Part shown: positions 7,809 through 55,502 of the stretch, piece by piece
Layout of the letters: each line of letters begins with the position of its first letter
Numbering within the stretch: position 1 is the first letter of the stretch
Source: Thraustochytrium sp. TN22
Lineage: Eukaryota; Sar; Bigyra; Thraustochytrida; Thraustochytriidae
Assembly: GCA_013306675.1 (NCBI GenBank)
Contig: JABLUY010000173.1
Span: 18,958-82,957 of the forward strand
Direction: 5' to 3'
Length of the DNA: 64,000 nucleotides
Position numbers and translations under genes: made by a program
The notes under the pieces: generated by a model
The model's input: the letters and a program-made list of their open reading frames with translations, nothing else
Database searches by the model: none
Told to the model about the DNA's origin: nothing

Positions 7809-9644
7809 ATGGAGGACGTCGAGCGGCGGTTGCCGGAGGACGAGCGCTCGGACCTGCCGGACTTGGAGGCGCTGCTGGACCCTCTGCTGGGCGATGTGGA
7901 CGCGGTGAGCATCATGAAGGACGATGTGATGATGCTGGACGCCATTCAGGCGGACGTGACGGAGGAGTTCCTCGAGGGCGTGGAGACGCCGCTGACAACC
8001 ATGGTGGTCTTCAACGACGACTCGCTCGAGCCCAGCAAGCCGAGCCAGCTGCGCAGCGCGCCCACCGACACTGCCAGGCCAACGGACGAGGTCGAGGACC
8101 TCATCTCGTCCAAGGACTCTGCGCTGCGCATGATTGAGTTCCTGCAGGGCCAGCTGCGCGCCAAGCAGGACGAGATTGAGGAGCTGCGTCGTGGCGGCGC
8201 CGCCACGACGCTGCCCGCTGCTGCGGCGGTCTCGCAGCCCGTGGACGTTGGCTCGCGCCCGCTGCAGCTGCGCAAGAACCTCAACGATGACTTTGAACGC
8301 ATCGTCGAGGAGGCAGTGGCCGCCGTCCAAGACACCTCCGAGGCCGACTGGGACCACGCGCGCGCGCTCAAGTCGGCCTCCGGCGCCGACCCGCGCACGC
8401 GCACGCGTAGTTCCTCGCTGTCCTCGGTCGCCGACGTCTTTGAGCCGCTCCCGGCTATCCAGCCAGAGCAGCCGCAGCCGCAGCCGCAGCCGCAGCTGCA
8501 GGAGCAGGACCAGGCGCAGGCGCAGCAGCAGGACCAGCAGGCAGCGCGCCGCAAGAAGCGCAAGCTTTCGCCGCCTTCTTCGTCGCCGGCCGTGCCGGCA
8601 CTTTCCTCTTCTTCGTGTTCGCCTTCGTCCGCGACCTCGATGCCATCCACAAAGCGCATTCGCAAGCCATCCGCCAAGGTCGTCGCTGGCATGGAGTCGG
8701 ACTCGGCGCTCGCTGAGGCCGTGGCGGCCGCACGCGCGCCCGAGCTCCCCTCGCAGCGCCGCGCCTCTTCCTCGAGCGCCGCATCCACGGCCTCGTCCAC
8801 ATCGAGTACCGCGCGCCTCGCGCGCCTCGCCTCGTCCGCATCTTCGGCCGATTCGGTCGGGTCCGCGGACGACGGCGCCGATAGCGACGGCGAGGGCGAG
8901 GGCGGCTCCAAGAAGACCGCGCGCCGCTGGACCTCGGAGCAGGACGAGGAGCTGCGCCGCGCCGTGGAGCGCCACAACGGCCAGAACTGGAAGGCCATCG
9001 CCAGCATGGTGCACGGCCGCGACCATGTGCAGTGCCTGCAGCGCTGGAAGAAGGTGCTTCAGCCCGGCCTCGTCAAGGGCATGTGGAGCAAGGAGGAGGA
9101 CGACCTGCTGCTCGAGCTCATGAGCACCAGCAAGCCCAAGAACTGGGCCGAGGTCGCACAGCGCATCCCCGGCCGCACCGCCAAGCAGTGCCGCGAGCGC
9201 TGGAGCCTCAACCTTGATCCGGCCATCAACCGCGGCGCATGGACGCAGGCTGAGGACGAGCTTCTCCTGCGCCTGCACGACAAGCTCGGCAACCGCTGGG
9301 CCGAGATCAAGCGTCACCTTAAGGGCCGCACCGAGAACGGCGTCAAGACGCGCTTCAAGAGCATCGAGCGCGCGCGCGCCAAGGATCGCGAGGTCACCTG
9401 GACGCCCGACCTTGAGAAGCAGCTTCACAACATCGCCGTGCGCTTCGACTGCCAGATGGACGAGGTCGCCAAGCACCTGCCGCGCCTGCTCCGGGGCATC
9501 TCCTCCCAGGCCATGCGCGAGCACTGCAAAATTCTGCGCGATGCCGAGGCGCGTCGCGCCCGCGCTGCCGTCGCTGCGGGCCCGCGCGTGCATGGACTCA
9601 AGTTCCCTGCTGACAACCCGCTGCTCGCTACCAACCGCTGGTGA
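7809..9644 (+). CDS. Three-repeat MYB (MYB3R-type) DNA-binding protein
   Basis: A 611-residue protein from the ATG at 7809 (context gcgagc ATG g). The N-terminal half is acidic then serine/glutamine-rich. It includes a short coiled coil (about 100-130), a PQPQ run near 220 and a basic R-K-K-R-K-L patch that could be a nuclear localisation signal. Residues about 373-525 hold three tandem MYB repeats with the regularly spaced tryptophans: R1 begins RRWTSEQDEEL, R2 GMWSKEEDDLL, R3 GAWTQAEDELL, each ending in the helix that contacts DNA (for example RTAKQCRERW). In animals, plants and many protists such R1R2R3 proteins regulate cell-cycle genes. A fourth, weaker helical segment (about 528-585, starting VTWTPDLEKQL) may be a degenerate MYB-like repeat. 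In-frame sequence upstream of 7809 is low complexity and not used. Confidence 0.93.
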   Translation: MEDVERRLPEDERSDLPDLEALLDPLLGDVDAVSIMKDDVMMLDAIQADVTEEFLEGVETPLTTMVVFNDDSLEPSKPSQLRSAPTDTARPTDEVEDLISSKDSALRMIEFLQGQLRAKQDEIEELRRGGAATTLPAAAAVSQPVDVGSRPLQLRKNLNDDFERIVEEAVAAVQDTSEADWDHARALKSASGADPRTRTRSSSLSSVADVFEPLPAIQPEQPQPQPQPQLQEQDQAQAQQQDQQAARRKKRKLSPPSSSPAVPALSSSSCSPSSATSMPSTKRIRKPSAKVVAGMESDSALAEAVAAARAPELPSQRRASSSSAASTASSTSSTARLARLASSASSADSVGSADDGADSDGEGEGGSKKTARRWTSEQDEELRRAVERHNGQNWKAIASMVHGRDHVQCLQRWKKVLQPGLVKGMWSKEEDDLLLELMSTSKPKNWAEVAQRIPGRTAKQCRERWSLNLDPAINRGAWTQAEDELLLRLHDKLGNRWAEIKRHLKGRTENGVKTRFKSIERARAKDREVTWTPDLEKQLHNIAVRFDCQMDEVAKHLPRLLRGISSQAMREHCKILRDAEARRARAAVAAGPRVHGLKFPADNPLLATNRW

Positions 9645-12874: not shown

Positions 12875-13621
12875 CTAGACGGCGTGGTGCGTCTCGCACC
12901 ACTCGCAGGAGGCCTTGCCGGAGTCATGGCACGAACAGCAGCAGCCGAGGTCGATTTCGATGACGGGCGCCACGGTGACGTAGTCGTCCTCAGAATCATC
13001 GTCGCTTCCGCGCGGCTTGGCGGGCGGCGCGGGCTTGGCTTCCGGCACCTTTTGCAAAAAGGGCTCGAAAGGGACGATGGCCTTGGCGGCGTGACAAGCG
13101 TCCAGAAAGCCAGCAGAGACGACCGGGACGTTATGCTTGAGCGCCTTGCGCACCTTCTGCGAGCGGCGGCGCACGGCGCGGTCCGAGGCGACGAGAGCGA
13201 AGACGCGCTTGTGCAGGATGCCGCTCACGGCGCCACCGGCGCCGACCACCTGGTCGCGCAGGTCCTCGAAGCTGACCTCGACGTCGTCGGAGCCGTCGTC
13301 CTCGTCGTCATCCTCGTCGTCGTTGCTGCGCACGGTGACGCCGAAGACCTTGCCCTTGAAGAACTTGAGCTTCTTCTGCAGCGCCTGCTTCTCGCCGGCG
13401 CGCTCCGCCTCGGCCCCGTCGCCGCCGGCCTTGGCCTTGGCGGCCTTGGCCTCGGCGGCCTTGCGCCGCTTGCGCTTGCGCCGCTCCTTGGCACGGGTGG
13501 CCGCCGGCGCCGGCGCGGCGGGCGGCGCGTCCTCGTCCGAGTCGGAGTCCGCCAGCACCACGTGCTGCGCGCGGCCGGCGGCGGGCCGGCCGCGCTTGCT
13601 GCCGCGCGCGGGCGCCTCCAT
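12875..13621 (-). CDS. Single-BRCT-domain protein with Cys-rich tail
   Basis: A 248-residue protein from the ATG at 13621; the frame upstream reaches only a TTG. Residues 1-75 are basic and low complexity, with KRKRRK-type nuclear localisation patches. Residues about 80-205 form a BRCT-like domain: an FFKGKVFGVTV first strand, an acidic insert, SFEDLRDQVVGAGG (helix 1 plus glycine turn), ALVASDRAV, KVRKALKHNVPVVSAGFLDAC (helix 2 to the conserved W/F region) and F-x-P-F. BRCT domains bind phosphopeptides or DNA ends in repair proteins. The tail holds C-C-C-x-C-H and C-x-x-C-x-x-H-H, a pattern that could bind zinc. The gene is divergent from the papain-family protease gene with 287 bp between starts. 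Confidence 0.8.
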   Translation of the reverse strand: MEAPARGSKRGRPAAGRAQHVVLADSDSDEDAPPAAPAPAATRAKERRKRKRRKAAEAKAAKAKAGGDGAEAERAGEKQALQKKLKFFKGKVFGVTVRSNDDEDDDEDDGSDDVEVSFEDLRDQVVGAGGAVSGILHKRVFALVASDRAVRRRSQKVRKALKHNVPVVSAGFLDACHAAKAIVPFEPFLQKVPEAKPAPPAKPRGSDDDSEDDYVTVAPVIEIDLGCCCSCHDSGKASCEWCETHHAV

Positions 13622-13908
13622 CGCGCCGCGCGCGGGCCGCCAGCCGGGCGTCTGCGCGAGGCCGCGGGTCTGGCGCGGGGCCGAGGCCGGGGCCGTGGGT
13701 GGCCCCTGCCGCGCCGCCTTGAACGTGAAGGCGGCGGCCACTGGCAACCCAACCCGAAGCCAGGCCGCCGGCAGACGCCCAAGCCCTCGCTCGCCGGCGC
13801 GCGCGCGGCGAGGAGGGCGGCGGCGGCGGCGGCGGCGGCGGCCGGGGCGCTCCGGGCCCCTCGGCCCGCGCGGCGCGGGTTCCGCTGCGGCGGCGGCGGG
13901 AGGCGACC
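13622..13908. promoter_or_regulatory. Short divergent promoter interval
   Basis: 287 bases separate the start of the BRCT gene (minus) from the start of the papain-family gene (plus), so both promoters and 5' leaders must lie here. It is extremely GC-rich, with CGG/GGC runs near 13815-13845, and has no TATA-like sequence. Confidence 0.5.
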
Positions 13909-36171: not shown

Positions 36172-37875
36172 CCGCTGCGCCTCGCGCAGCACACCGCAGC
36201 GCCCGAGGGCCGCGCGCCGCGGCGCCCTCCCTCCCTCTTTCCCTCGTACGCGGCGTCCGCGGTGACGGCGCGCGTCGCCGCCGCGAACTTGTGCACCGCA
36301 CCACTGGCGCGCGCGCGGGGGCCGCGCGCCCGCGAGCGAGCGAGCGGCGGCGAGCGCGCGCGGCCGCGGAGGGCGGCCGGGCGCGCGCGCCGCGGCGTCC
36401 GGGCTCTGTGCGCCGCCGCGCGCCGCGGTCCCGGCGTCCTGCCCGGCCGCGGCCGTTCTGAGTTAGCCTCGTCGCTAATGTTGGCGAGGTCCTCCTCGCG
36501 CTGCTCGCAGGTTGCCGCCGCGCTAGATTCGCGCGCCACGCGCACCGGACCCGGCGGCGCGGCGCTTCGAGCGCGGGGCGGCGCGCCGCGTCCGCTGGCA
36601 GCGCGGGACTCTCAACGGTGGTGGCCGGCGACTTGTCCGAGGCCGGCTTCGAGCACGACGAGGACTCGGAGGACGGCCAGGACGAGGTGCAGGCCGGAGG
36701 GCCAGGATTGAGAGGGCCAGGATGGGCCCCAGGCGAGGGCGGAGCGGAGCGCCTCGCGGAGGGGGGCTGGAGAGCGAGCGGGCCCGGGTTGGGGTTCTGG
36801 CCGCGGAGGGATCTGTCTGTCTGTCTGTCTGTCTGTCTGCCTGGGCGTCGACGGGCGAATCATGGGCAGGCGAGATGCGAAGGCGTCGCGCCGCATCTTG
36901 TCTGCTAGTTAGTGTGCGTGCGTAGTAAGTAGCCTGGAGCGCGAGCGGAGTCCGAGCGGCTGGAAGGAAGAGCAAGGCGCGGCGAGGCTGGCTCGGGAAG
37001 CATCCAAGGCCTAGCTGCGTGCGGGAGCGCCGTGGCTAGCGTGGCGAGGCTGCGGTGACGTTGATAACGAGGCCGCGTCGCGTGCCTGCCAGTGCTGCTG
37101 TCGCTTGTTAGGGTCTTGCATCGCCAACTCACGACACAGAAGATCCAAAGCGGCTCTGCGGAAGATCCGAAGTTGAATCTATCTCACGCGTGCCAGCCAG
37201 GACTGCCAGTGCGCTCTTGTTTCCGCAGTGTCGCTCGCCGCCCCTACGCGCTCGCCGCACCCGTGCCCTCGCACCCTTCATACCAGGCGCTGCAGACTCC
37301 GCCACGCTTCGCGACGAGCGCTGCCTCCGCTGCCGTCGCGCTTCGCATGCGAGTCGTCCGTCCGAGTTCAAGTTGGACGCCCTCAGGCTGAGCCCTCCGA
37401 GTCGAGCCATCCGAGTCACGGTCCGCTCACGACGCGCAGTGGCCCGCGGAGTGGGCCGCGCAGTGCCCTCTCCACGCGTGGCTCCCACTCGGCTCCGTCT
37501 CGGTCGTGGTCATGGCTCTGACGTGCGCATCGATCGACCCGGGCCACACGTACACCATCGAGGACCTCTTCACAGGCGAACGTCGGCGGCGCACGCCACA
37601 GGTCTTCTCCACTGCACTACGCCGCCGATGCCTCACTCCACTGGCAGGCCTGCGACCTGGTCAGAGGTCTCGGCGTCGTCTCGGCCCTGTCTCGGCTCCG
37701 TCTCGGCTCGTCCTCGGCTCTATTTGCCCAGGCATGCGTCCGCTGGAAAGGCGGCCAAGGAGGGCAACCGCCGCGCGGGCGAACCGGGACGAGCAGGAGC
37801 TGGAGCTGGAGCTGGAGCTGGAGCTGGAGCTGGAGGCAAAGCAGCAGTGCAACCGCCGCGCGGGCGAACCGGGAC

Positions 37876-37921
<46 letters not shown>

Positions 37922-38150
37922 TATACCTGGGCCTGGAGCTGGAGCTGGAGCTGGAGCTGGAGCTAGAGCAGGAGCAGGCGCTGGAGCTGGAGCTGGAGCA
38001 GGAGCTGGAGCAGGAGCTGGAGCTGGAGCTGGAGCTGGAGCTGGAGCCGCCAGAGCCAGAGCGGGAGCAGAGGAGCTGGAGCCGAAGCCGGAGCGGGAGC
38101 AGGAGCGGGAGCAGGAGCGCCTGCAGCAGTGCGGCCAGCGGCGCAGCGCG
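36172..38150. other. 2-kb divergent intergenic region
   Basis: It holds the promoters of the small anchored protein (minus) and the HPAT-like gene (plus). It has GTCT repeats at 36811-36840, GCGCGCG runs near 36300-36390, and a long GGAGCT/GGAGCA hexamer array (37796-38110) just before the HPAT start. A short frame at 37512 (about 30 coding-like codons, reads HTYTIEDLFTGER) could be a uORF or an upstream exon. Nothing else coding was accepted. Confidence 0.5.
37796..38110. repeat. (GGAGCT/GGAGCA)n hexamer minisatellite
   Basis: Hexamer units, clean between about 37796-37836 and 37877-38046 and degenerate to 38110, lie 40-350 bases upstream of the HPAT-like ATG. Because the unit is 6 bp the frame stays open across it, but the predicted Glu-Leu/Ala-Gly peptide is unlikely to be part of the enzyme. 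Confidence 0.85.
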
Positions 38151-39806
38151 ATGCGCGCCGGGGCGCGCGAGTTCGAGGCGCGGCGGCGCGCGGCCGCGGC
38201 GCCGTGGTGGCGGCAACGGCGCGCGGTGGTGGGCGCGCTGGGCGCAACGGCGGTTCTGGCGGTGGTGGGGTGGCTGTACCACGTGGCGCTGGTGACGCAG
38301 GACCTGCAGCGGTCGGTGCGAGCGGGGGGCAAGGCGCTGCGCAACCTGGACTTGGAGGCGCAGGCGCAGGCGCTCGAGGACAGCGCGGCGCAACGCAAGG
38401 CGACCGCAGCGTACGATGCGCTGGCGGAGGCGGCTGCAGCGCCCGTTGACCCGGTGCTGTACCTGTACGCGGAGCGCGACTGCAAGGGCGACGTGGTGAC
38501 GGCCATACGGCCGCGCGAGGCCGGCAGCACGGATCTGCATGGTGTGTGCCAGTACAACGCGGCTTCGATGCGGCTTGAGGGCGGGCCGGAGGTCGATTTC
38601 TACTCGAGCTGCAACTCGGGCCGCGACTACATCGGCTCGCTCTTCGCGTCCGAGGGCTGCGTGCAGCGCTACCACTACCCCTCGGCGAACTCCTTCCGCT
38701 TCGTGTGGGAGTCGTCGCTGGCGCGGCGCCAGATTCCGGACGAGGTCCTGGAGACGCAGTGGGCACTGCAGGATCACCGGCCCTCCAAGCCGGCCGGGGC
38801 GCCGGCGCGCGCGCGCATCATCTTCTCGTGCGAATCCTCCGAGTACTTTGGCTACCAGGTGTGGGCGAACTACTATGCGTTCCTGACGAGTGGGCAGTCC
38901 AGCGCGTCCTGGACGCGTCTCCTGACCGCTGGCCGTCGTGATGACTTGCCCACGGTCACGGACGGCCTCGCCACCTTCCAGGCCAAGCGCTCGCTGTACT
39001 CGCGGCGGTACTCGCCCATCAACAAGCCGGACGTCATCACCAAGTGGTTCGCCTCTCAGGACCGTCCCCGGGAGGAGGTCATGGTGGTCATCGACCCGGA
39101 CAACTGGCTCCTCAAGGACCTTGACGCCTACGTGGCCCGAGTCAAGCCGGGCTACGCCATCGGCGAACCGGCCTATTACCACGGCAGCCGCACGGCGCAG
39201 AAGCTCTGGAAGGAGGTCTGCCAGCGCAACTGCGACGTGGAAGCCGACCTCGTCGGAGTCCCTTACATCGTGCACCGCGACGACCTCGCAGCCATCGCGC
39301 CACTCTGGCGCTCCTACACCATCATGCTCAAGGATCGCATGGAGCGCGATGAGGACTTCAAGAAGCAGTTCGGCCACCTCGACCTCTCCTGGGCCGCTGA
39401 GATGTTCGGCTACAACTATGCATGTGCGCACGTTGGCGTGCGCCACGAGGTCGTGCCGCGCATTCAGGTCCGTGACGTCGACTCGGAGCACCGCAAGGAC
39501 CGCCTGCAGGAGGTCGCCATGATCCACGTCGGTCGCGCCTGGTTTCCGCCCGACTACCCACCCGCTCAGAAGTGGGCGCACACCGAGGGCAAGAATTTTA
39601 GGCGCTTCGGCCAGCAGGTTTGGTGCAAGTGCAACTTCACCGCCAGCACCATCATGCCGTGGCCCGTGCCCCCCGAGGCCGATTTTCAGAGCACCAAGAC
39701 GCTCGAGATGCTGCACTACTCCAAGGAGCGATTTGGCCCTATTCCTGTCAACACCGAGTTCCGGCGCGGCGCCTCGCGCGGATCCTACGGCCACAGCTTG
39801 AACTGA
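38151..39806 (+). CDS. HPAT/SERGT-like Golgi glycosyltransferase with N-terminal beta-gamma-crystallin-like domain
   Basis: 551 residues from the ATG at 38151. Residues about 25-47 form one N-terminal membrane helix after basic residues, a type II Golgi topology. Residues about 100-187 resemble a beta-gamma-crystallin module (VLYLYAERDCKGD, then CQYNAASMRLEGG, then VDFYSSCNSGRDY). The C-terminal domain (about 220-500) matches the hydroxyproline O-arabinosyltransferase / peptidyl-serine galactosyltransferase fold: IIFSCESSEYFGYQVWANYY, the acidic VVIDPDNWLL motif (about 312-321, at the DxD position), ADLVGVPYIVHRDDLAAIAPLW, and AEMFGYNYACAHVGVRHEV. These enzymes glycosylate cell-wall or secreted proteins in plants and algae. 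The acceptor here is unknown. The upstream hexamer repeat is excluded. Confidence 0.83.
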   Translation: MRAGAREFEARRRAAAAPWWRQRRAVVGALGATAVLAVVGWLYHVALVTQDLQRSVRAGGKALRNLDLEAQAQALEDSAAQRKATAAYDALAEAAAAPVDPVLYLYAERDCKGDVVTAIRPREAGSTDLHGVCQYNAASMRLEGGPEVDFYSSCNSGRDYIGSLFASEGCVQRYHYPSANSFRFVWESSLARRQIPDEVLETQWALQDHRPSKPAGAPARARIIFSCESSEYFGYQVWANYYAFLTSGQSSASWTRLLTAGRRDDLPTVTDGLATFQAKRSLYSRRYSPINKPDVITKWFASQDRPREEVMVVIDPDNWLLKDLDAYVARVKPGYAIGEPAYYHGSRTAQKLWKEVCQRNCDVEADLVGVPYIVHRDDLAAIAPLWRSYTIMLKDRMERDEDFKKQFGHLDLSWAAEMFGYNYACAHVGVRHEVVPRIQVRDVDSEHRKDRLQEVAMIHVGRAWFPPDYPPAQKWAHTEGKNFRRFGQQVWCKCNFTASTIMPWPVPPEADFQSTKTLEMLHYSKERFGPIPVNTEFRRGASRGSYGHSLN

Positions 39807-40131: not shown

Positions 40132-43100
40132 CTAGTCAATCACGATGATGTCCTCCTCGGAGCCAGCACCAAGGTCGATGACACCGGATTTCTCCTTCTC
40201 CTTCTTCGACAAAATACTCCCCTCCGGCACGAAGCCCGCCTGGAGACGTCCCGATGTGATACAGGCGGCGACCCACTCGGGCCTTTTAAAGACGCACCGA
40301 ATCGGCTGTTGCGGCATGTGGACAGCCTGCGTCTGGGCATCGATCCGCTGTTGCCAGCTGCTACAGAGCCCTGCCAGCCGCTCGCGGCGGAAGGAGGACA
40401 CCACGAACTGGCAATTGACGTTGCTTGGCTGATCCGAGTCGATCGCCACCACGACGTTGGCGCCGTTGCGCTGAAGCGCCTCGATGAGCTCGTCCGCATT
40501 CGGCACACGCTTGCGCAGCACCAGCACAGAGTGCGGAGCAAATACTCCGCGCGGGTCTGGTGGCTTCTGCATGTACCAGCGATCTAGACTGACCTGGTAA
40601 TTGGGTTCCAGGTGGCTGTACCTGGTATAACTATACGGGCCCTGCAGCATGCGCTGGCCGGAGTCGCCAACAACCTGCCGACCATGGTGAGCACCAACCT
40701 GACCGACGCGGTCCGCTGCCTGGCTGCCAGCGGGCCTATAGGCGGCGCTGCCGCTGCCGCTGCCGCTGCCGCTAGGCAGCTCGCCCTTCTTCATGCGCGC
40801 GACCATATCGGCAGCCTTGGCCGCGGCAACGTGGGGAGGAAAGTTCTGCTCAAGGTACCTGGCCTCCAGCTCCTTCACCTTGGCGAACTCCGCCAGCGCT
40901 TCTTCACGCGCCGCTTCGGTCTGGCGCTCCGCATCGTCCTCGTTCAGCAGCAGATCTTCGAGACAGAAGTCCGTCACAAAGTCTGTACCCCCGCGGTCGT
41001 TCGTGAGCACGCGCTGGAGAGCAATATCACGACGTAGGGCCCGCTTCTGCTGCATCTCCTTCTCCGTTGTCACCGGATCAACAACGACCTGGATCTCGCC
41101 CCCGTCGCCGCCATCAGCCGCACCCTGGCCCTTGCCGTTCGCCTGTAAGTGCTTGGCAACTCCGCCTGCGGCCTCGGCTTCGCCGTTCACGGCGTTCTTG
41201 GCGATGGCAGCGCCCTCCGCGCCGTTGGCAACGATCGTGTCCCCATCGGTGTTGGCGATGGCATTCGCCTGCGGCACTATGCCGCGTGCGGCCTCCTCCT
41301 CCGCAGTCTTGGCTTGGCCGCCACCTCCCTCCTCCTGGCCTTCTTGAAAGGCATCATCGTCATCGTCATTCTCCTTCTCGATCTTGGTCTCTTTCCCCTC
41401 CTCTTCGGCTTCATCCATCTGCTCCTCGTCCTCATTCTCGTTCTCCTCCTCGTCCTCTCCAGTCTGCAGGTCGTCGCGGAGCTTGGCAGGGTTAATGGTT
41501 GCCTTTTGCTGTTGGTTGAAGCGGCGTATGCTGAAGAAGTTGCGCAGGTCCGCCGCGTGGATGGTGCGCTTGGTGGCGCGAGCGTCGACGACACGCGAGG
41601 TCAGCGACTCCTTCTTTGTCTGCTGGTCAAAGATCGTGCGCTCCATCGTTCCAGCCGCAACGAGACGGTAGACAAAGACCGGCTTGGTCTGGCCGAAACG
41701 GTAAGCACGGCACATGGCCTCGTGGTCCAGGCAGGGGTTCCAGCAGGCGTCAAACATGACGACACGGTTGGCCGACTGCAGGTTGAGGCCCTCGCCGGCC
41801 GCTCGCGTGCTCGCCAGGAAGATGCACTTTTCGTGAACGGGCGCCGCGTTGAAGTCATCCACGATCTTGTTGCGCTCGCTCTGCGGGGTCGACCCATCGA
41901 GCCGCGAGAAGCCGATGGAGATGCCCGGCAGGTACGGGCAGCTGTCCGACCCAGCATCCAGCAGCGGGTTGCCCTTGCGCGCCTTTGCGCCGGGCGTTGC
42001 GCCTTCGCCGTCTCCATCGCCGGTGCGGTCCGTGTCTTCGGAACTGGTATGCGCCTCGTCCTCGGCCGGGCCGTGGCGGCCTGCAGTGTCTTCTTCGTCA
42101 GAATCTGCGTCATCCTGCAACTTGATGAGCGCCTGCTGCTTGGGAACGAGCTCGTTGTGGGCACGAATGATGGCTTCAATGATGTTGAGCGTCTGTACGC
42201 TCTGCGAGAAGACGATGGTCTTCTCGTTCTGCTCGCGGATCTGACGCAGCAGCGAAAAGAGGACGACCATCTTGCCCGAGTCCGAGAGGTGCGTCTCGGG
42301 CTTGTAGTTTTGCAAAGCGTCGCGCGCCCATGACAGCGCATGCCTGGACGCGGGCAGCGCGCCGCCCTGATCGTCGATGGCCAACACTGCGCCGTCCTCG
42401 TCGTCCTCCTCCTGCATCTGCCGCATCACGCGATCGTGCTCGACCTGCTGCAAGCGGGAGATGCGGTTGTCCTCCTCAAGCAGGTCCTCCTTGGAGAGCT
42501 GCGCCTCGATGCCACCACGCAGCTGTGCCCCGCGCCAGGAAGCGCGGTGCCAACGGTGCAAGGTGAAGCGCACCATGGAGTCAGGTGCCACGGCCATGTT
42601 TCGTGATTCGCGCACCGTCTCTTCGTATCCGTGGTCGCAGCACTGCATGCCGTTGACGCTCTCAATCTCGTCAAAGGGCTCGAACCAGAGCTGGTCTGGA
42701 TCAGCGCTGACGGCAGCACCAACAGCGCCGGTAGGTGACGAAGACGACGACGACGAGGTGGAGGAGGAGGAGGAGGAGGATGTAGCAGCAGCTGCCGCCG
42801 AGGCCGCCGCCGCGGCGGCCGCCGAGCTCGCTCCGCCATGAACGCGAACGACACGAAAAACGAGGAGGCGGTTGGCGGGACTGTAGCGGTCCGCGGACAC
42901 GTCAAAGGACTGCACCTCAATTGGTAGCGTGTCCAGCACAGAGAGCGGGACGTCGATGGTGACGACTGCGAAGACGCCGTCGCGCGCGCCTAGGCCGGCT
43001 GCACTCGAGCCCTCGCTCTCGCGGAACGTGTTGCAGATGATGTCCGGGTGGTTGACGATGGCCAGCGAGTAGTGGTAGGCCGCGATGATGCCGCCGTTGC

Positions 43101-44140
43101 GCGAGGTACCCGCGTCGCCGTTGTCCGCAGCCTCGCCCACGCGGTGGCGCACAAAGGCCTTGTACAAGGTGCCTTGATGCTTTGTGAGCCGGCAACGCAC
43201 CACCCACTCATACTTGGGTGGGAGCTCGCGCGCCAGGTGCTGCGAGTCGCGCCGTAAGATGATGGAGCGCAGCATGTCGTTGAGTACCATGGTGCGCGAG
43301 CGCGCGAGTGAGACGTCTTCGGGTTTGGAGTCGGCTGCTTGGCCGTTCTCAATGGGGATTTTGAACTGATGCTTGAAGACCTCCTTGGACTGCAGGAACA
43401 TGGGCCGTGCGAAGTTCACCATGCACCAGTATTCGTCGAGGTGGTTCTGCAGCGGGTATCCAGTGAGCACGATGCGCCGCCGCGTGCGGATGAGCGACAT
43501 GGCCTTGACGATTTGCGACTTGGCCTGCCGTAGGCGGTGGCCCTCGTCAACGATGACGAGCGAGGGCCCCGGGTCGGTGGCCAGCAAGCACCGGGCCCTA
43601 ATCGCCTGCTCCGATTCAGGCGGGTCCGTCTCCTTGGGCTCCTGTACCAGGGAGCGGAACATCTCGTAGCCAGTCAACAGCAGGCCGCCCTCGGCCTGCC
43701 AGCGCTCCAGGACCTCGAGCCTCTGCTCGAGACGCGAACCGGTACGCGTGTCCAGCACGCGGACGTTGAAGAGCTTGAGCGCCTCGCGATACTCCGGTAT
43801 GTCCTTGTCCAGCCACTTGTGCAGCTCGCGGTGCCAGTTCAGCACCACGGACGTGGGTGAGACGACCAGAACGGTCGTCTTGCGGTTCGGGTCCTGCGTG
43901 TCCTTGTGGTGCTTGAGGAAGGTGTGCATGAGCGAGATGTTCTGCAGCGTCTTGCCAAGGCCCATGTAGTCAGCCAGGATGCAGCCGCTCAGCGTGTCGG
44001 ACTGCACGTGGCTCCAAAGGAACCTGACGCCCACGGCCTGGTGCGGCTTGACCACCTTGGAGAAGATCGGGTCCAGCCTCACGCGAGGCACGTGTTTGTG
44101 TCCAGCCTTTCCGTTGGTCTTACCCATGTTTGCTGGTGCC

Positions 44141-44239
<99 letters not shown>

Positions 44240-44733
44240 GCTGTTGCTGAGGACGAGGACGAGGATGTGGCAACGGGGGATGTTGTTTCTGCTGCCGTCG
44301 TTGTTGCCGCTTCAGACGCTGGCGCCGCGGCCTCATCCTCGGTCTTTGCCTTGTGCGCGCCATTTTCGGACTCGGCCTTGGCCTCGTCCGATTTGGCCTC
44401 GTCAGCCTTGACGTCCCAAAGCGGAATGCCCTCCCGACGGTCCTTCTCGGAAATGGCCTCGATGGCCCACTTGCCGGCGCGCCGCGCGCCGCGCTTCGCC
44501 CGCTTGAGCAAGCGCTCATCCAGCTTGGACTTGGCTTGGTTGATCTTGCGCTTGCGCTGCTTGTTGGCGCTCGGGCCCGCAGCGCTCGCGTCTCCCGCCA
44601 GGAAACGTTCCGTGGCCTCCGCGCGCGTGCCCGGCTCGGCGCCCGCATCCTCGTCGTGTAGCTGCGCGTCCCCCTCGTCCTGCTGCTGCTCGTCCAGGTC
44701 GGAGCCCATCTCGTCCAGGTCCGCCATGCTCAT
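40132..44733 (-). CDS. ATRX-like SNF2 family ATPase with C-terminal BRCT-like module
   Basis: 1533 residues from the ATG at 44733; the frame above reaches only a TTG. An acidic/basic N-terminus and an (AG)n run (about 166-200) precede the ATPase. Lobe 1 has KPHQAVGVRFLW, DYMGLGKT (Walker A, about 257-264), VLVVSPTSVVLNW, VDEGHRL (about 397-403) and LTGYPLQN. Lobe 2 has FSRLDGSTPQSERN, STRAAGEGLNL and CRAYRFGQTKPV (the arginine-finger region). Both match the ATRX/RAD54-like branch of SNF2 chromatin remodelers. Between lobes lies a long insert with a serine run and a PDZ-like stretch (about 622-732, ...EIESVNGMQ...SMVRFTLHR...). After lobe 2 come a Glu/Asp-rich region and a ~150-residue module ending in IRCVFKRPEWVAACITSGRL, a BRCT-like helix, shared with the neighbouring gene. 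The last residues (DIIVID) fit a SUMO-interacting motif. Confidence 0.93.
44139..44240. repeat. (CTCCTG)n hexamer array inside the SNF2 gene
   Basis: About 17 hexamer units, read on the minus strand as alternating Ala-Gly. Same unit as the array at 37796-38110. Length is likely variable among strains. Confidence 0.9.
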
Positions 44734-45422
44734 CCGTGCCGCGCTGCGCGGAGTCAGCGCCGCGCTCCGTGCGGACGAGGCCGCTGGTGCACGTGCGCCG
44801 CGCGCCGCCCGCCGCCGCCGACGGAGTGCAGGATGGACGTCGCTCTGGCGTCGCGGCCACGTCTGGGAGCGGGAGGGAAAAGTTGTTTGCAAAGGGAGCG
44901 ACGCTGCGCGCGCAGCGCGTACTCTACCGCGCCGCGCCGCGCCGCGCCGCGCCGCCGCGCCGAGCGGGCGAGCGAGCGAGCGAGCGCGCGCGCTCCGGCC
45001 GAGCTAGCCCCGTCGCCTGCCCACGCCGAACGCCGCGCCAGCGCCCACCCGCGCGGCCGATCGGTGCTTGCTCGCTCCAGCGAGCTCGCTTGGACTTTTG
45101 CGAGCGAGCCAAAGGAGCCGCGGTGTCGTCGTTAGTTTCCAGGCAGGCAGGTCAGGCCTAAGCTCCATCAGTAGCCGGAGCTACGTAGACCAATTTGGAT
45201 CGAGGAGCAGATCTCGCCTCGGCCAAGGAAAGTGTACTGCTTGCGGTCCCGGACCCAGCCTACACCGAGCTCTGGCTCGCGGTCTACGGTAAGATGCTGT
45301 TGACTTTGCTTATTTCAAGCCCTGGTAGAGTTGGGACCACGAGGTCATACGTAAGACTAATTAGGATAGAGGAGCAGATCTCGCCTCAGGCTTGCGTTAG
45401 GCTCTGTTGCTGTAGCTTTAGC
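44734..45422. other. Intergenic region with duplicated 3' sequence
   Basis: 689 bases between the SNF2 start and the stop of its neighbour. GGAGCAGATCTCGCCTC occurs at 45204-45220 and 45371-45387. A 28-bp segment at 45321-45348 matches 45472-45499 inside the neighbour's coding end with four differences. GCGCC/GAGCGAGC repeats lie near 44925-44995. The SNF2 promoter must be here. Confidence 0.6.
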
Positions 45423-47051
45423 TTAGTCAAGTACGATAGGGTCACCGCACCCCTGGTAGAGTTGGTGGTACCCCTGGTAGCATTGGGTCCACGAGCTCAG
45501 GCGAGAGAACTTTTGAAAGCTGGCGTCGTCTTCGTCAGGACCGAAGCCCATGAGCATGCGACCCGCGTCGACGCAGGCTTTGACCCACGCGGGCTTCTTG
45601 AAGACGCACCTGATCGGCACCTGCGCCGTGTCAGCAGCGAGCGTCTTTGCGTCGCGCTTCTCTTGCCAGGCCTGGCAAATGGAAGAGAGCTTGTTCCTGC
45701 GAAGGGATGAGACCACGTAACGGTAGCCGTCAATTGCGTTCTTGAGCTCCTCGACGTCGCGCACCAGGTCAACTTTGGCACCATGGCAGGACAGGACCTC
45801 GAGGAGGTCTGCAGCGTCCGGGAGCCGCTTACTCAGGACAAGGACTTTCTGCCCTCGAAAGACCCCAGCCGTGGCAGCCTCGTCCTTTGATTTCTCCATG
45901 CACCAGTTGTCCAAATTGGACTGATAAGCAGAGTCCAGGTGCATGTACTTGGTGTAAGGATGCTTCAGCCTCAACTTCGGAATCACTGCCGTGGACGCCT
46001 CAGTACGCCTCGCGATCTTGCGGTCTTGGGAAGTAGCGCTTCCATTTCCCGAACGAAGCCACGTCATGAGATGGCTCTCTTTACGGCGAGGTCCGGCCAG
46101 ACCGAGCGTGTCGGTGACAGCTGCGCGACCAGCCGAAGCCGGTGATGACGGAGCCGAGGCGGAGGCGGCTGAAGGCGAGGTGGCGGCATGCGCAGCCGTG
46201 GTCAAGGGCGAGACACCAGAGGCCGACAGCGAGGCGGGGGACGAAGCCGAGGTGGCGGTGCACGAGGTGGCGGTGGAGGTGGAAGGAAGCTTTGAAGCCG
46301 AGTCGGAGATCGTCTTTGCGGCAGCGCACATCGAGGCCGCCAGCCCAACTCGGACCCCGCCTTCGTTGTCATGCGACTTGGGGATCGATGTGGAGGGCGT
46401 GGATGGGTTTGAAGCCGGCCGAGGGCCACGTTTTGCGGGCTGCTGAGCTGCTCCCATGGGTTGCGAGGACACTTTCGCCGACTGCGCCGCTCTCTCCGGC
46501 TGCGCCGCTCTCGCCGACCGTGCCGCTCTCGCCGACGGTGCCGTCTTCGCAAATTGCGCCGCTCTCGCCAACTGCGATGTTCCCGCTGACTGCGCTGTTC
46601 CCGCCGACTGCGCAGCTCTCGTCGGCGCATGGCTGTTCGCTTGAGCTGCTCGGGTGTGCGCCTGAGCCTGTGCTTGCGCCGCTGGAGCGAGCGAATGAGG
46701 AGGCTGAGCACCTGGCATGCCCCTCTCGATGTGAAAGAGCCTCGTCTCAATATTTTGCATGAGCTTGTAGTTCTCACGCGCCCAGTGTCTCATCTCGTTG
46801 ACATTGCGCTGCATGAGGCGCTGGCTATGCCTGAGGTACTTGAGCTTGTTCCGTTTTCGGCGAATTCTCCTCACGTCGCGCCTCCTGGCCTTCATGGCCG
46901 TCGTCTGCGCTGCGCTTGTCGCCCCGGAGGAGGTGCCCTGGGGCTGCCCCTTGGGCTTTTCGCCTCGCTCCTTGTCATCTTGGCTGCCCTGGCGCGGCGG
47001 CGCCGCAGCCAGCACCGAGGCCGCGGCCTCACTGTCAGAACTACCCGGCAT
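45423..47051 (-). CDS. Paralogue of the SNF2 C-terminal module on a disordered scaffold
   Basis: 542 residues from the ATG at 47051; the longer frame starts at TTG. Residues 50-110 are strongly basic and helical (KARRRDVRRIRRKRNKLKYL). Residues about 115-375 are low complexity: repeated R-A-A-Q-S/A-R-A-A-Q units, then Ser/Thr/Ala-rich. Residues about 380-530 closely parallel the end of the adjacent SNF2 ATPase: YTKYMHLDSAYQSNLDNW, KVLVLSKRLPDAADLLEVL, YRYVVSSLRRNKLSSICQAW, VPIRCVFKKPAWVKACVDAGR. The last residues (PIVLD) also resemble the SNF2 end. There is no ATPase domain. A BRCT-like fold is the best guess for the shared module. It lies on the same strand, 0.7 kb upstream of the SNF2 start, so a local partial duplication is likely. 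Confidence 0.85.
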   Translation of the reverse strand: MPGSSDSEAAASVLAAAPPRQGSQDDKERGEKPKGQPQGTSSGATSAAQTTAMKARRRDVRRIRRKRNKLKYLRHSQRLMQRNVNEMRHWARENYKLMQNIETRLFHIERGMPGAQPPHSLAPAAQAQAQAHTRAAQANSHAPTRAAQSAGTAQSAGTSQLARAAQFAKTAPSARAARSARAAQPERAAQSAKVSSQPMGAAQQPAKRGPRPASNPSTPSTSIPKSHDNEGGVRVGLAASMCAAAKTISDSASKLPSTSTATSCTATSASSPASLSASGVSPLTTAAHAATSPSAASASAPSSPASAGRAAVTDTLGLAGPRRKESHLMTWLRSGNGSATSQDRKIARRTEASTAVIPKLRLKHPYTKYMHLDSAYQSNLDNWCMEKSKDEAATAGVFRGQKVLVLSKRLPDAADLLEVLSCHGAKVDLVRDVEELKNAIDGYRYVVSSLRRNKLSSICQAWQEKRDAKTLAADTAQVPIRCVFKKPAWVKACVDAGRMLMGFGPDEDDASFQKFSRLSSWTQCYQGYHQLYQGCGDPIVLD

Positions 47052-51708: not shown

Positions 51709-52575
51709 GACTTCAGCCAGCTGTCTGCAGTGCAGGGGGCTGCAGGCTCGCGGCTAGCCCAGCCTGCCCAGGTACCTTCTCCGAGTCGCCGAGCTTCCTC
51801 AGACTCGCAGACCGACTCCGACTCCGAGTCCAACTTCTCTTTTCTCTGGTATCTAACTGCATCAAGAGCATGCTCCTTCACAGCTTGGCCTCGCCTCTGC
51901 CGGCCTGGCCGTGCGGCGTGCACGCCGTGCACGGCGCGCAGCGCTGCCCCCAGCGCAGTGGCGCGCCTCATGACCGCATCGTCGTGCAAGTCAGTGCGCA
52001 CTCCGCCACGTGCAGGGCCGCACACGTGCCGTGGCCGCACTCCCTCGCCGGCCGCACGCGCCCGCGCCTCGTCTCGCCTCGCCGTCTCGCCTCGCCTCGC
52101 CTCGCCGTCTCGTCTCGCCTCGCCTCGCCTCGCCTCGCCAGCAGGCGGGCGCGCGCCCGCGCCGCCGCCGCGCCGCCGCGCCGCCGCGCGCGCGGGGCCG
52201 CGGGGAGGGGGCGGAGTCCAGGCGGCGGCGGCGGCGGTGGGGCAGGGCAGACGGCGGCGCGCTTGTGCACGGCCGGGTCCGGTGCGCGCGGCGCGGGCGC
52301 GGGGGCGGGCGGCGGGGCCAGCGGACCCGGCGCGGCGCGTCGCGGGCGGCGGCGCGCGCAGACCCGAATCAACGAGCGCGCGGGCGGCGCGGCGCGGCGC
52401 GGCGCGGCGCGGCGGCGCGAGGGCAGCGCGCGAGGGAGGGAGGGCGGCGCGCGGCGGCGAGCGCGGCGGCGAGCGCGGCGGCAGGCCCGCCCCGCTCCCA
52501 GGCGCGGCGCGCGCGGCGGCAAGGCGGCACGGCGGGCAAGACAGAGGCGGCGGCGGCACGCGCGGCGCGTGCAGC

Positions 52576-52621
<46 letters not shown>

Positions 52622-52688
52622 CAGAAGGCGAGGAAGCAGGCGCGGAGGAGCGGCGGCGGCCGCGGAGGCCGCGGCGCGGCGAGGCAAG
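51709..52688. other. Intergenic region with GA microsatellite
   Basis: 980 bases between two plus-strand genes. The first ~200 bases are probably 3' UTR. CTCGC-type pentamer repeats lie at about 52065-52138, and a pure (GA)n tract at 52579-52614 lies 75 bases upstream of the next start, probably in its 5' leader. Confidence 0.55.
52579..52614. repeat. (GA)n tract in the 5' leader
   Basis: About 18 GA units shortly before the scaffold gene ATG. A (CT)n tract lies at the equivalent place upstream of the minus-strand CCT gene. Confidence 0.9.
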
Positions 52689-55502
52689 ATGAGCAGCGCC
52701 AAGCCCGTGGCGCAGCTGCAGGCGTTCTACGAGGAGGTGGACCCCGAGCGCGTCAAGAACGCGCAGCCGTTGTTCGAGCGATGGACGCAGGCGGAGATCG
52801 CCGAGGCGGTGTTTAAGAAGTACAAGCGAGTGCCCGAGGGCTGGGTGGCGCCGGGCAACCTGGGGTCTGGCAAGGCGCGCAAGTCCAAGACCAAGTCGGT
52901 AGGCGCCAAGCCGGCGCCACCCCGCGCCAAGCCCGTGCCACCGGCGCCGCCCAAGGGCGCGTCCAAGGAGCGCGTGGAGTCGCTCAAGGCTGAGGCGCGG
53001 CTGGAGGCCCACTTCCCGGAGCCCGCGCCCGTGCCGGTGCTGCCGCGTGCGTCCGCGAAGCCGCCGCCGCCACCGCCTGCGCGGCCAGTGTCGACCCGCA
53101 TGGTGGCGCCGCCGGCGCCGCCCTCGGGCAAGCCCAAGCCGCCTGCGCGCAACAAGCCGGCGCCGCCGCCCAAGGCAGCGCCGCCGCCGCCCTCGGTGCT
53201 TCCGCCGCCCGACGATGACGGCTCCGGGGCCAACATCGTGGACGGCCTTGAGGTTCTAGATCCGGACCACCCGGACCTGGGCAAGTACGAGCGCATGAAG
53301 AACGCCGGCCTGCCGCAGGGCGCGGTGGAGAACTCCATGGTGCGTGACGGCGTTCATCCCTCGTCCGTCTTTGGCGACGACGTGCTCACCGTAGCGCCCG
53401 CGCCGACCGCTGGTGGCGGTGGCGGTGGTGGTGGCAGCAAGCCTTCGCCACCGCCGAAGCCGGCCGCGCCGCCCAAACCGGCCGCGTCCAAGCCCGCGCC
53501 GCCGAGCGCGTCCAAGCCCGCGCCGCCGAGCGCGCCCAAGCCCGCGCCGCCGAGCGCGGCCAAGCCCGCGCCGCCGGCGGCCAAGCCAGCCAAGCCGGCG
53601 CCGCCAGCCAAGCCAGCCGCTCCGGCGCCAGCTCCCGTAGCCGACGAGATGGACGGCGAGGGCGGCAACTTGGTGGACGGCCTGGAGGTGTTGGACCCAT
53701 CTCACCCAGACCTGGGCAAGTACGAGCGCATGAAGAATGCCGGTCTGCCGCAGGGCGCGGTGGAGAACTCTATGGTGCGCGACGGCGTCCACCCCTCGTC
53801 CGTCTTTGGCGACGAAGTGATCACTATGGCACCCGCACCGTCCATGGGCGGCGGCGGCGGCGGCGGCGGCGGCGGGCCAGCCAAGCCGCCGCCACCAGCG
53901 GCCAAGCCTGCCAAGCCGGCAGCACCACCAGCCAAGCCGGCTCCGCCGTCTGCAAAGCCGGCACCGCCGGCCGCGAAGAAGGAATCGCCCATCCGCAAGT
54001 CCTTCCGCGCGGTGGCGGGTCTCTTTGGTGGAGCGCCCAAGCCAGAGCCGGAGCCAGCCGCCAAGTCGTCTGCACCCGCACCTGTAGCCTCGAGCATCAA
54101 GCAGCGCCAGGCCAAGCTGGCAGGCATCTTTGGAGGGCCTGCTGCGGCAGCAGAGCCGGAGCCCAAGCCCGCGGCCCCCAAGGAGCCCGTGGTGAAGATT
54201 GCGGGCGGCATCGCCTCGCGCCAGGCCGCCATTGCCGGTCTGTTTGGTGGTGCGCCGGCGGCAGCAGCCCCGGCGCCCGCGCCAGCGCGCTCCGGGCCCG
54301 TCCAGGTCTCTAGTGCCTTGGCCTCCAAGCAGGCTGCACTTGCCGGTCTCTTCGGTGGCGGTGGTGGTGGTGGCGGCGGCGGCGGCGGCGGGCAGCCCGC
54401 CCCCTCATCCAAGCCTGCCGCCAAGAAGTGGCCCACCGTGGGCACGGATGGCAGTAGTGCCCCGGCTTCCGGCGGCGGCGCGCCGAAGTTTGGCGGCGGC
54501 GGCGGCGGCGGCGGCAGTGGCGGCACTGCATCACCCGGCGACAACATTGGCGGCTTGGAAATTCTCGCAGCGGATCACCCGGACCTGAAGAAGTACGAGC
54601 GCATGAAGGGTGCTGGTCTACCCCAGGGGGCTGTCGAGAACTCCATGGTGCGTGATGGCGTGCACCCTTCGTCCGTTTTTGGCAAGGATGCCATGACGGT
54701 GGACGCTGTGACAGTCCTCGGCGGTGGTGGCGGCGGCGGTGGTGGTGGCGGCGGCGGTGGCGGCGCTGCCCCTGCTCCGGCGCCGGCCCCAGCCGCGTCC
54801 GCTGCTCCGCCGCAACAGCAACAGCAGCCGCAGCAAATGATGATGCAGCAGCAACCCATGATGATGCAGCAGCAACCCATGATGCAGCAGCAACCCATGA
54901 TGATGCAGCAGCCCATGATGTATCAGCAGCAGCAGCAACCCATGATGTATCAGCAGCAGCAGCAACCCATGATGTATCAGCAGCAGCAGCAGCCCATGAT
55001 GTATCAGCAGCAGCAGCAGCCTATGATGTATCAGCAGCAGCAGCAGCCCATGATGTACCAGCCGCAGCAGCAACCCATCCCGGTAGCGCGCGCGCCACAG
55101 CCGGCGCAGCCGCCGCTGCCCATGGGTCCGCCGCCCGAGATTGAGCAGCAGTGGGTGACGATGTGGTCCGAGGAGTACAACGCGGAGTACTACTACAACA
55201 CCGAGACGGGCGAGTCGACCTGGGAGGACCCGGGTGCCAAGAAGAAGAAGAAGTTGTCGAAGCGCCTCTCGTCCAAGCGTCAGCAGCAGCCACAGCAGCC
55301 AGAGGCGGCCCAGGCCGCCACATACGCGTACATGATGTACGACTACTCTCCCTCGGGCGCCAACCCGGACGAGGTGGGCGCTTCCGCGGGTGAGGTGTGT
55401 CAGGTTATGCAGCAGGGCTCGGACGGCTGGTGCCAGGTGTCTTTCCAGGATGGCCGCTATGGTCTCGTGCCGACGAGCTACTTGACGCCGGCGAGCTCGT
55501 GA
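52689..55502 (+). CDS. Actin-type scaffold: three WASHC3-like motifs, poly-Pro, WW and SH3
   Basis: 937 residues from the ATG at 52689. Order: a short helical N-terminal domain (about 8-50, VDPERVKNAQPLFERW); proline-rich linkers able to bind profilin or SH3 domains; three near-identical motifs of the pattern HPDLxKYERMKxAGLPQG-AVENSMVRDGVHPSSVFG at about 194-229, 339-374 and 631-666; a second repeat family of three R/K-Q-A-x-(I/L)-A-G-(I/L)-F-G-G units at about 470-560; glycine runs; an MMxQQQ-rich segment (about 717-795); a WW domain with W821 and W847; and a C-terminal SH3 domain (about 878-937, YDYSPSGANPDEV...GWCQVSF...YGLVPTSYL). The first motif family resembles the C-terminal segment of WASHC3/CCDC53 found in WASH-complex and formin-like proteins. 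Expected role: an actin-nucleation or endocytic scaffold. Confidence 0.9.
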   Translation: MSSAKPVAQLQAFYEEVDPERVKNAQPLFERWTQAEIAEAVFKKYKRVPEGWVAPGNLGSGKARKSKTKSVGAKPAPPRAKPVPPAPPKGASKERVESLKAEARLEAHFPEPAPVPVLPRASAKPPPPPPARPVSTRMVAPPAPPSGKPKPPARNKPAPPPKAAPPPPSVLPPPDDDGSGANIVDGLEVLDPDHPDLGKYERMKNAGLPQGAVENSMVRDGVHPSSVFGDDVLTVAPAPTAGGGGGGGGSKPSPPPKPAAPPKPAASKPAPPSASKPAPPSAPKPAPPSAAKPAPPAAKPAKPAPPAKPAAPAPAPVADEMDGEGGNLVDGLEVLDPSHPDLGKYERMKNAGLPQGAVENSMVRDGVHPSSVFGDEVITMAPAPSMGGGGGGGGGGPAKPPPPAAKPAKPAAPPAKPAPPSAKPAPPAAKKESPIRKSFRAVAGLFGGAPKPEPEPAAKSSAPAPVASSIKQRQAKLAGIFGGPAAAAEPEPKPAAPKEPVVKIAGGIASRQAAIAGLFGGAPAAAAPAPAPARSGPVQVSSALASKQAALAGLFGGGGGGGGGGGGGQPAPSSKPAAKKWPTVGTDGSSAPASGGGAPKFGGGGGGGGSGGTASPGDNIGGLEILAADHPDLKKYERMKGAGLPQGAVENSMVRDGVHPSSVFGKDAMTVDAVTVLGGGGGGGGGGGGGGGAAPAPAPAPAASAAPPQQQQQPQQMMMQQQPMMMQQQPMMQQQPMMMQQPMMYQQQQQPMMYQQQQQPMMYQQQQQPMMYQQQQQPMMYQQQQQPMMYQPQQQPIPVARAPQPAQPPLPMGPPPEIEQQWVTMWSEEYNAEYYYNTETGESTWEDPGAKKKKKLSKRLSSKRQQQPQQPEAAQAATYAYMMYDYSPSGANPDEVGASAGEVCQVMQQGSDGWCQVSFQDGRYGLVPTSYLTPASS

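Follow-up and report, generated by a model that had tools for sequence, protein, structure and literature searches.

A motor-less neighbor shares the predicted C-terminal BRCT domain of an ATRX-like remodeler in Thraustochytrium sp. TN22

In a stretch of 64,000 nucleotides from the thraustochytrid Thraustochytrium sp. TN22 (contig JABLUY010000173.1, positions 18,958 to 82,957; hereafter the window), two adjacent genes on the minus strand, one encoding an ATRX-like SNF2 ATPase (the remodeler) and the other a protein without a motor (the neighbor), have homologous C-termini. Aligned by BLASTP, the two ends share 64 of 143 residues (45% identity, 132 bits, E-value 5e-36, five gap positions), a likeness far above chance. 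We suggest, giving it a probability of about one half, that the pair is best explained as an ATRX-like remodeler with a BRCT domain at its C-terminus and a motor-less duplicate that shares its dock. The first-pass annotation, made from the sequence, had noticed a common C-terminal arrangement in the two genes, and the motif blocks that it quoted are present in the alignment, as are the hydrophobic-acidic ends, DIIVID in the remodeler and DPIVLD in the neighbor. Both frames are open, with the neighbor (47051-45423) read before the remodeler (44733-40132), and the two parts ascribed to the neighbor in place of a motor are indeed there, namely a basic helix (residues 53-110) and a low-complexity stretch that looks disordered by eye. 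In its own 37.9 Mb genome the neighbor's module matched only two places at E ≤ 0.001, three candidates having been scored.

The shared C-terminal module

The shared module appears to be a BRCT domain. An AlphaFold model of the remodeler copy (predicted local distance difference test score, pLDDT, 88.3; predicted template modeling score, pTM, 0.82) arranges its elements as beta-alpha-beta-beta-alpha-beta-alpha. Searched with this model, Foldseek returned BRCT domains at ranks 1-12 (best E-value 1.2e-4, lower rows mixed), and VIA-align gave BRCT proteins, some of them presumed to be such, in all 50 rows listed. A profile search with the family matched the BRCT domain of TdT at E 2.8e-9, and the closest folds found by Foldseek and VIA-align include the BRCTs of XRCC1 and DNA ligase III. 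In the family alignment (A3; 22 rows, with 20 fragments of 19 proteins drawn from 28 proteins with a module match), the tryptophan of the last helix (W126 in the first row) is conserved in 90% or more of the rows. The earlier idea of a BRCT-like module is thus well supported for the remodeler copy by the confident model, the fold searches and the TdT match. The structure check of the neighbor copy, modeled from a two-sequence alignment, was less favorable: the same element order was obtained at a pLDDT of only 52.8, with receivers ranked above BRCTs, and because of this weak model the BRCT fold of the neighbor rests on homology. The Pfam BRCT models matched neither window copy; at E ≤ 1, BRCT and BRCT_2 were each found in five of 22 family members (best E-value 0.003), and the relative P0002, introduced below, scored E 0.17 against BRCT_2.

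The module had been thought private to the pair. Instead, it is a long-standing C-terminal domain of the ATRX-like remodelers of stramenopiles. Relatives were collected by a protein-database search with the remodeler motor, and all counts given here rest on the best 120 of its 1645 matches. Those listed include P0002 (59% in the motor region), P0003 from Hondaea fermentalgiana, P0004 to P0007 and numerous proteins from oomycetes; both Hondaea and Mucochytrium, the source of P0005, are thraustochytrids. By profile search, the module occurs in 28 of the 29 best relatives (P0002-P0030), in part in P0003 and with P0029 lacking it, a match that for most of the 28 follows by construction because their own rows built the profile. 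None of the next 91 relatives, mostly animal ATRX and ARIP4 but also the Pythium protein P0037 and others, reached E 1 in this search. A profile without the rows of the two window proteins and P0002 found the remodeler at E 3.9e-8, the neighbor at E 4.1e-7 and P0002 at E 5e-12, its columns having come from an alignment that contained all three. P0003, whose gene model ends inside the BRCT, was excluded from the profile building and from the tail count given below. Since the module seems to be old in stramenopile ATRX-like proteins, the neighbor would have taken over an existing domain, rather than the pair having invented one. Searched alone against the protein database, the remodeler C-terminus gave no match, but this search is insensitive, since P0002 carries the module; viral contigs likewise gave no match. 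A CxxC-CxxC ribbon-like motif precedes the BRCT in 20 of the 28 relatives, none of them labyrinthulomycete-type, and is missing from P0009 and P0028 as well. In P0030, whose source name (GSMAST32) suggests a marine stramenopile, there are two C-terminal BRCT modules, each preceded by a zinc-ribbon-like motif as judged by eye.

The extreme C-terminus also shows a pattern. A hydrophobic core beside acidic residues was found within the last 12 residues in 17 of 29 family tails, where 1000 shuffles gave 2.2 on average and never more than 7, and in 13 of 91 other rows; related rows are not independent. The remodeler end DIIVID fits this pattern; such tails resemble SUMO-interacting motifs and might bind SUMO.

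As to the origin of the neighbor, module trees favor the partial duplication that had been proposed. With oomycete rows included, remodeler, neighbor and P0002 grouped at 94/93; in a tree limited to labyrinthulomycete-type rows, the same three together with Hondaea separated from the remaining rows at 100/99. The neighbor therefore appears to be a diverged partial duplicate of the remodeler that has no motor. Because the helix YTxYxHLxxxYQxxLDxW preceding the BRCT is seen, by eye, only in the same four proteins that split off at 100/99, the duplication probably took place among thraustochytrids once the lineage of Mucochytrium had branched off, with helix, BRCT and end as the copied piece. Inside the group, remodeler and neighbor paired at 61/16, and the two alternative orders had approximately unbiased test p-values (p-AU) of 0.33 and 0.335. 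Gene order adds a further hint. The Hondaea gene model P0003 runs directly from a P-type ATPase into the remodeler, and its two parts find their best matches in the genes flanking the neighbor, a P-type ATPase gene and the remodeler gene (67%, and, over three segments, 57%, 51% and 41%); the next-best genome place for the ATPase part is 32% identical. Accordingly, the neighbor sits in a gene pair shared with Hondaea. The public model of P0003, named calcium-transporting ATPase 1, is probably a fusion by annotation error.

The motor and the domain between its lobes

The remodeler motor is ATRX-like, as the first reading of the sequence had it, and groups with the ATRX/ARIP4 subfamily. Among PDB entries ATRX matches it best, at 2.2e-96 versus 9.8e-75 for a RAD54-like protein, and in a motor tree of 27 rows the 19 ATRX-like rows, both stramenopile and animal, grouped at 100/99 against eight SNF2 rows from the same genome, the latter with long branches. 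In this tree, from which P0004 was left out, the stramenopile rows were supported at 100/99, animal ATRX with ARIP4 at 85/79, and the window remodeler with P0002 and Hondaea at 100/100. Pfam matched motor families in the remodeler, along with weak low-complexity hits, and found no ADD domain, which is why we call the protein ATRX-like and not ATRX.

Between NHPD at residue 561 and SGKM at residue 819, the motor is interrupted by an insert that, by profile comparison, appears to be a PDZ domain, as in the other labyrinthulomycete-type remodelers. A profile of seven such inserts matched PDB entries at a best E-value of 8.9e-5, and the best 60 of 135 rows were PDZ proteins, several of them presumably so. 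Compared by hhalign with a PDZ set from the same genome, the insert profile gave E 5.4e-6 (probability 86, 41 columns), five shuffles all giving E ≥ 0.55; in cross-controls the insert matched BRCT at E 0.39 and the BRCT module matched PDZ at E 0.27. Seven labyrinthulomycete-type proteins among the 123 compared were matched by the insert profile, none of the other 116 falling below E 0.39, also in leave-one-out runs. These runs recovered the omitted member at E-values from 3e-19 (P0002) to 0.0043 (P0004), with 1.1e-9 for the window row. Pfam was weak on the inserts, with PF00595 in three of seven members and a best PDZ-type E-value of 0.0098, and its PDZ models did not match the window insert. 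The inter-lobe linker has 20-130 residues in those stramenopile-type rows outside the labyrinthulomycetes from which it could be excised (the linkers of P0011, P0020 and P0029 were not located). It is likely that the ancestor had a motor, a zinc ribbon, a BRCT and a tail, and that labyrinthulomycetes lost the ribbon and gained the PDZ. Elsewhere in this genome, a CHD1-like protein (L057:276-6761, plus strand, contig C117) combines chromodomain matches and an SNF2 motor with a PDZ_6 match above cut-off (E 5.3e-9), a second remodeler with a PDZ.

PDZ domains commonly bind C-terminal peptides, and one might imagine the tails as ligands of the PDZ in the motor, an on/off latch acting in cis through the remodeler tail or in trans through that of the neighbor. 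The position of the PDZ between the lobes would suit such a latch, as would the leucine that ends the tails of P0004 and P0006. However, the tails of the window remodeler, P0002, P0005 and P0007 end in aspartate or glutamate, which is unusual for PDZ ligands, and many oomycete proteins keep the tail, yet none matches the PDZ insert profile. We regard the latch as improbable.

Possible roles of the neighbor

In the mechanism that we think likely, BRCT and tail would attach the motor to a partner in repair or in nuclear bodies, and the neighbor, oligomerized on nucleic acid, would present that docking site as well. The neighbor might then compete with the remodeler for the partner, or cluster several partners and thereby recruit the motor. 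A third option is that it pairs with the motor protein BRCT to BRCT, in the manner of XRCC1 and DNA ligase III, whose BRCTs form a heterodimer according to structure titles and to a title, cited in PMC3195086, on their BRCT-mediated dimer complexes. Because these two proteins are among the best structural matches, such pairing would be the most testable of the options.

Several points weigh against a shared dock. The Foldseek template modeling scores (TM-scores) of the three best rows are 0.41-0.43 by query length (0.57-0.61 by target length), and the neighbor tail DPIVLD misses the tail pattern. In BRCT domains that bind phosphopeptides, Ser/Thr-Gly follows beta-1 and a lysine lies in alpha-2, the phosphate-pocket Ser-Gly being known from BRCA1. 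In most rows of the family alignment the position after beta-1 looks basic (RK, SK or RR), as judged by eye, and since the Ser-Gly seems to be replaced in this way, we do not predict phosphopeptide binding. Furthermore, with an identity of no more than 43-45% between the two BRCTs, their binding may have diverged, and a single BRCT need not dimerize, that of PARP-1 being a monomer according to passages of PMC3195086. Lastly, the neighbor found nothing at E ≤ 0.001 in the protein database, a weak search in which low-complexity words probably swamped the candidate list, capped at 7995.

That this weak search found no homolog would also fit a neighbor that is a copy in decay, or an open frame without function in a GC-rich genome. 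The window holds 87 frames of at least 200 amino acids on both strands, and the low-complexity middle of the neighbor is not coding-like in codon-position composition (G+C 0.63, 0.74 and 0.66). However, the frame is open across 542 codons, its helix and module are coding-like by the same measure, and the module was found by the profile that lacked the rows of the window proteins and P0002. Between the two modules, nonsynonymous divergence (dN) is 0.44 against a synonymous divergence (dS) of 1.2 by NG86, and 0.45 against 1.08 by LWL85, giving a dN/dS of about 0.37 with dS saturated in both; the same codon is kept at 33 of the 64 unchanged residues. Composition, open frame and dN/dS point to constraint on the putative neighbor protein, and we give little credence to a decaying or spurious gene.

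A more serious alternative, which we hold to be possible without favoring it, is that the neighbor is an independent BRCT adaptor that evolved partners of its own and is functionally unconnected with the remodeler, adjacency being no more than a trace of the duplication. Its module is 43% identical to that of the remodeler, no closer than the remodeler's is to that of P0002 (42%), its tail has diverged, and its first 360 residues matched nothing among the other proteins compared beyond one chance-level hit (E 9.6). Yet the PIRCVFK-P-WV-AC block, which lies around the last strand and helix, is among the best-kept parts of the module, and the two genes remain side by side even though the divergence between the copies is by now about that between the remodeler and P0002.

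The preferred reading, a remodeler and a duplicate sharing one dock, can be carried further, to an ATRX of two proteins and two locks in labyrinthulomycetes, although we think this unlikely. Here the inter-lobe PDZ would sense a C-terminal peptide and gate ATP-driven motion, and the C-terminal BRCT would pair, as in XRCC1 and ligase III, with a motor-less paralog from the adjacent gene, through which the motor would be held at nucleic acid or at bodies rich in SUMO.

Window features and known systems

The coordinates of both genes are given in Table 1.

Table 1. Parts of the remodeler and neighbor genes, in window positions
Feature	Position	Strand	Residues	Basis or remark
Remodeler gene (ATRX-like SNF2 ATPase)	40132..44733	-	1533 aa	From first ATG, single open frame
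Remodeler motor lobe 1	43042..44043	-	231-564	Pfam SNF2-rel_dom E 3.8e-54; GLGKT at 258, DEGH at 396
Remodeler predicted PDZ domain between motor lobes	42535..42978	-	586-733	Includes poly-Ala/Ser loop; profile searches
Remodeler motor lobe 2	41566..42279	-	819-1056	Pfam Helicase_C E 2e-19
Remodeler pre-BRCT helix YTxYxHLxxxYQxxLDxW	40564..40629	-	1369-1390	Helix 16-27 of structure model
Remodeler predicted BRCT domain	40222..40548	-	1396-1504	Profile, AlphaFold model, fold searches
Remodeler C-terminal tail GVIDLGAGSEEDIIVID, SUMO-interacting-motif-like	40135..40185	-		Sequence, tail count
Neighbor gene (BRCT without motor)	45423..47051	-	542 aa	Open frame
Neighbor basic, coiled-coil-like helix	46722..46895	-	53-110	Sequence and codon-position composition; coiled coil by eye
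Neighbor low-complexity Ala/Ser/Gln-rich stretch, probably disordered	46092..46721	-	111-320	Disorder by eye
Neighbor copy of pre-BRCT helix	45891..45956	-	366-387	Alignment to remodeler
Neighbor predicted BRCT domain	45534..45866	-	396-506	Homology and profile; own model of low confidence
Neighbor C-terminal tail GCGDPIVLD	45426..45452	-		Sequence

A Pfam scan of the neighbor protein gave no domain above cut-off. Elsewhere in the window, a small protein at 12875-13747 (minus strand) has a BRCT just above the Pfam cut-off (21.6 versus 21.3 bits) and VIEIDLG near its end, a hydroxyproline O-arabinosyltransferase-like gene lies at 37506-39806 (plus strand, E 5.6e-18), and a frame of 1210 residues at 51870-55502 (plus strand) matches WW and SH3 domains.

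ATRX, a genome-stability remodeler of animals, has a separate BRCT protein as a partner there: according to PMC11631451, human ATRX binds NBS1 via the FHA and BRCT domains of NBS1. As here a BRCT, often together with a SUMO-motif-like tail, is predicted on the ATRX-like protein itself, the link between ATRX and BRCT domains may be old, or it may have been built twice. A motor-less BRCT paralog could be a simple test case for whether a docking domain, once copied, comes to regulate the protein from which it was derived, and the inside of a remodeler motor would be an unexpected site for a peptide sensor. Among the literature matches listed, titles and opening lines of abstracts did not mention a BRCT-tailed or PDZ-in-motor ATRX-like protein or the motor-less paralog, which is no proof of their absence from print.

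Compared with known systems, the remodeler shares with animal ATRX and ARIP4 (RAD54L2) the motor, given their grouping and the best PDB match noted above, but differs from them in having no ADD domain by Pfam and in its predicted C-terminal BRCT and inter-lobe PDZ; profile searches detected neither domain in the 91 rows of lower rank. From the single BRCTs of TdT and Pol lambda, XRCC1 (its second BRCT), DNA ligase III and PARP4, the remodeler copy differs in lying behind an SNF2 motor, in its long alpha-2 helix and in being missed by the Pfam BRCT models. For Drosophila, PMC10671109 describes an ATRX divided over two proteins, one of them without a motor: dXNP carries the SNF2 part and dADD1 the ADD part. 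This may be a precedent for dividing the remodeler, although dADD1 carries the ADD, whereas here both proteins would keep the BRCT. XRCC1 and DNA ligase III, finally, offer two single BRCTs of different proteins in a known heterodimer, which are the best Foldseek matches here and which the window pair may resemble.

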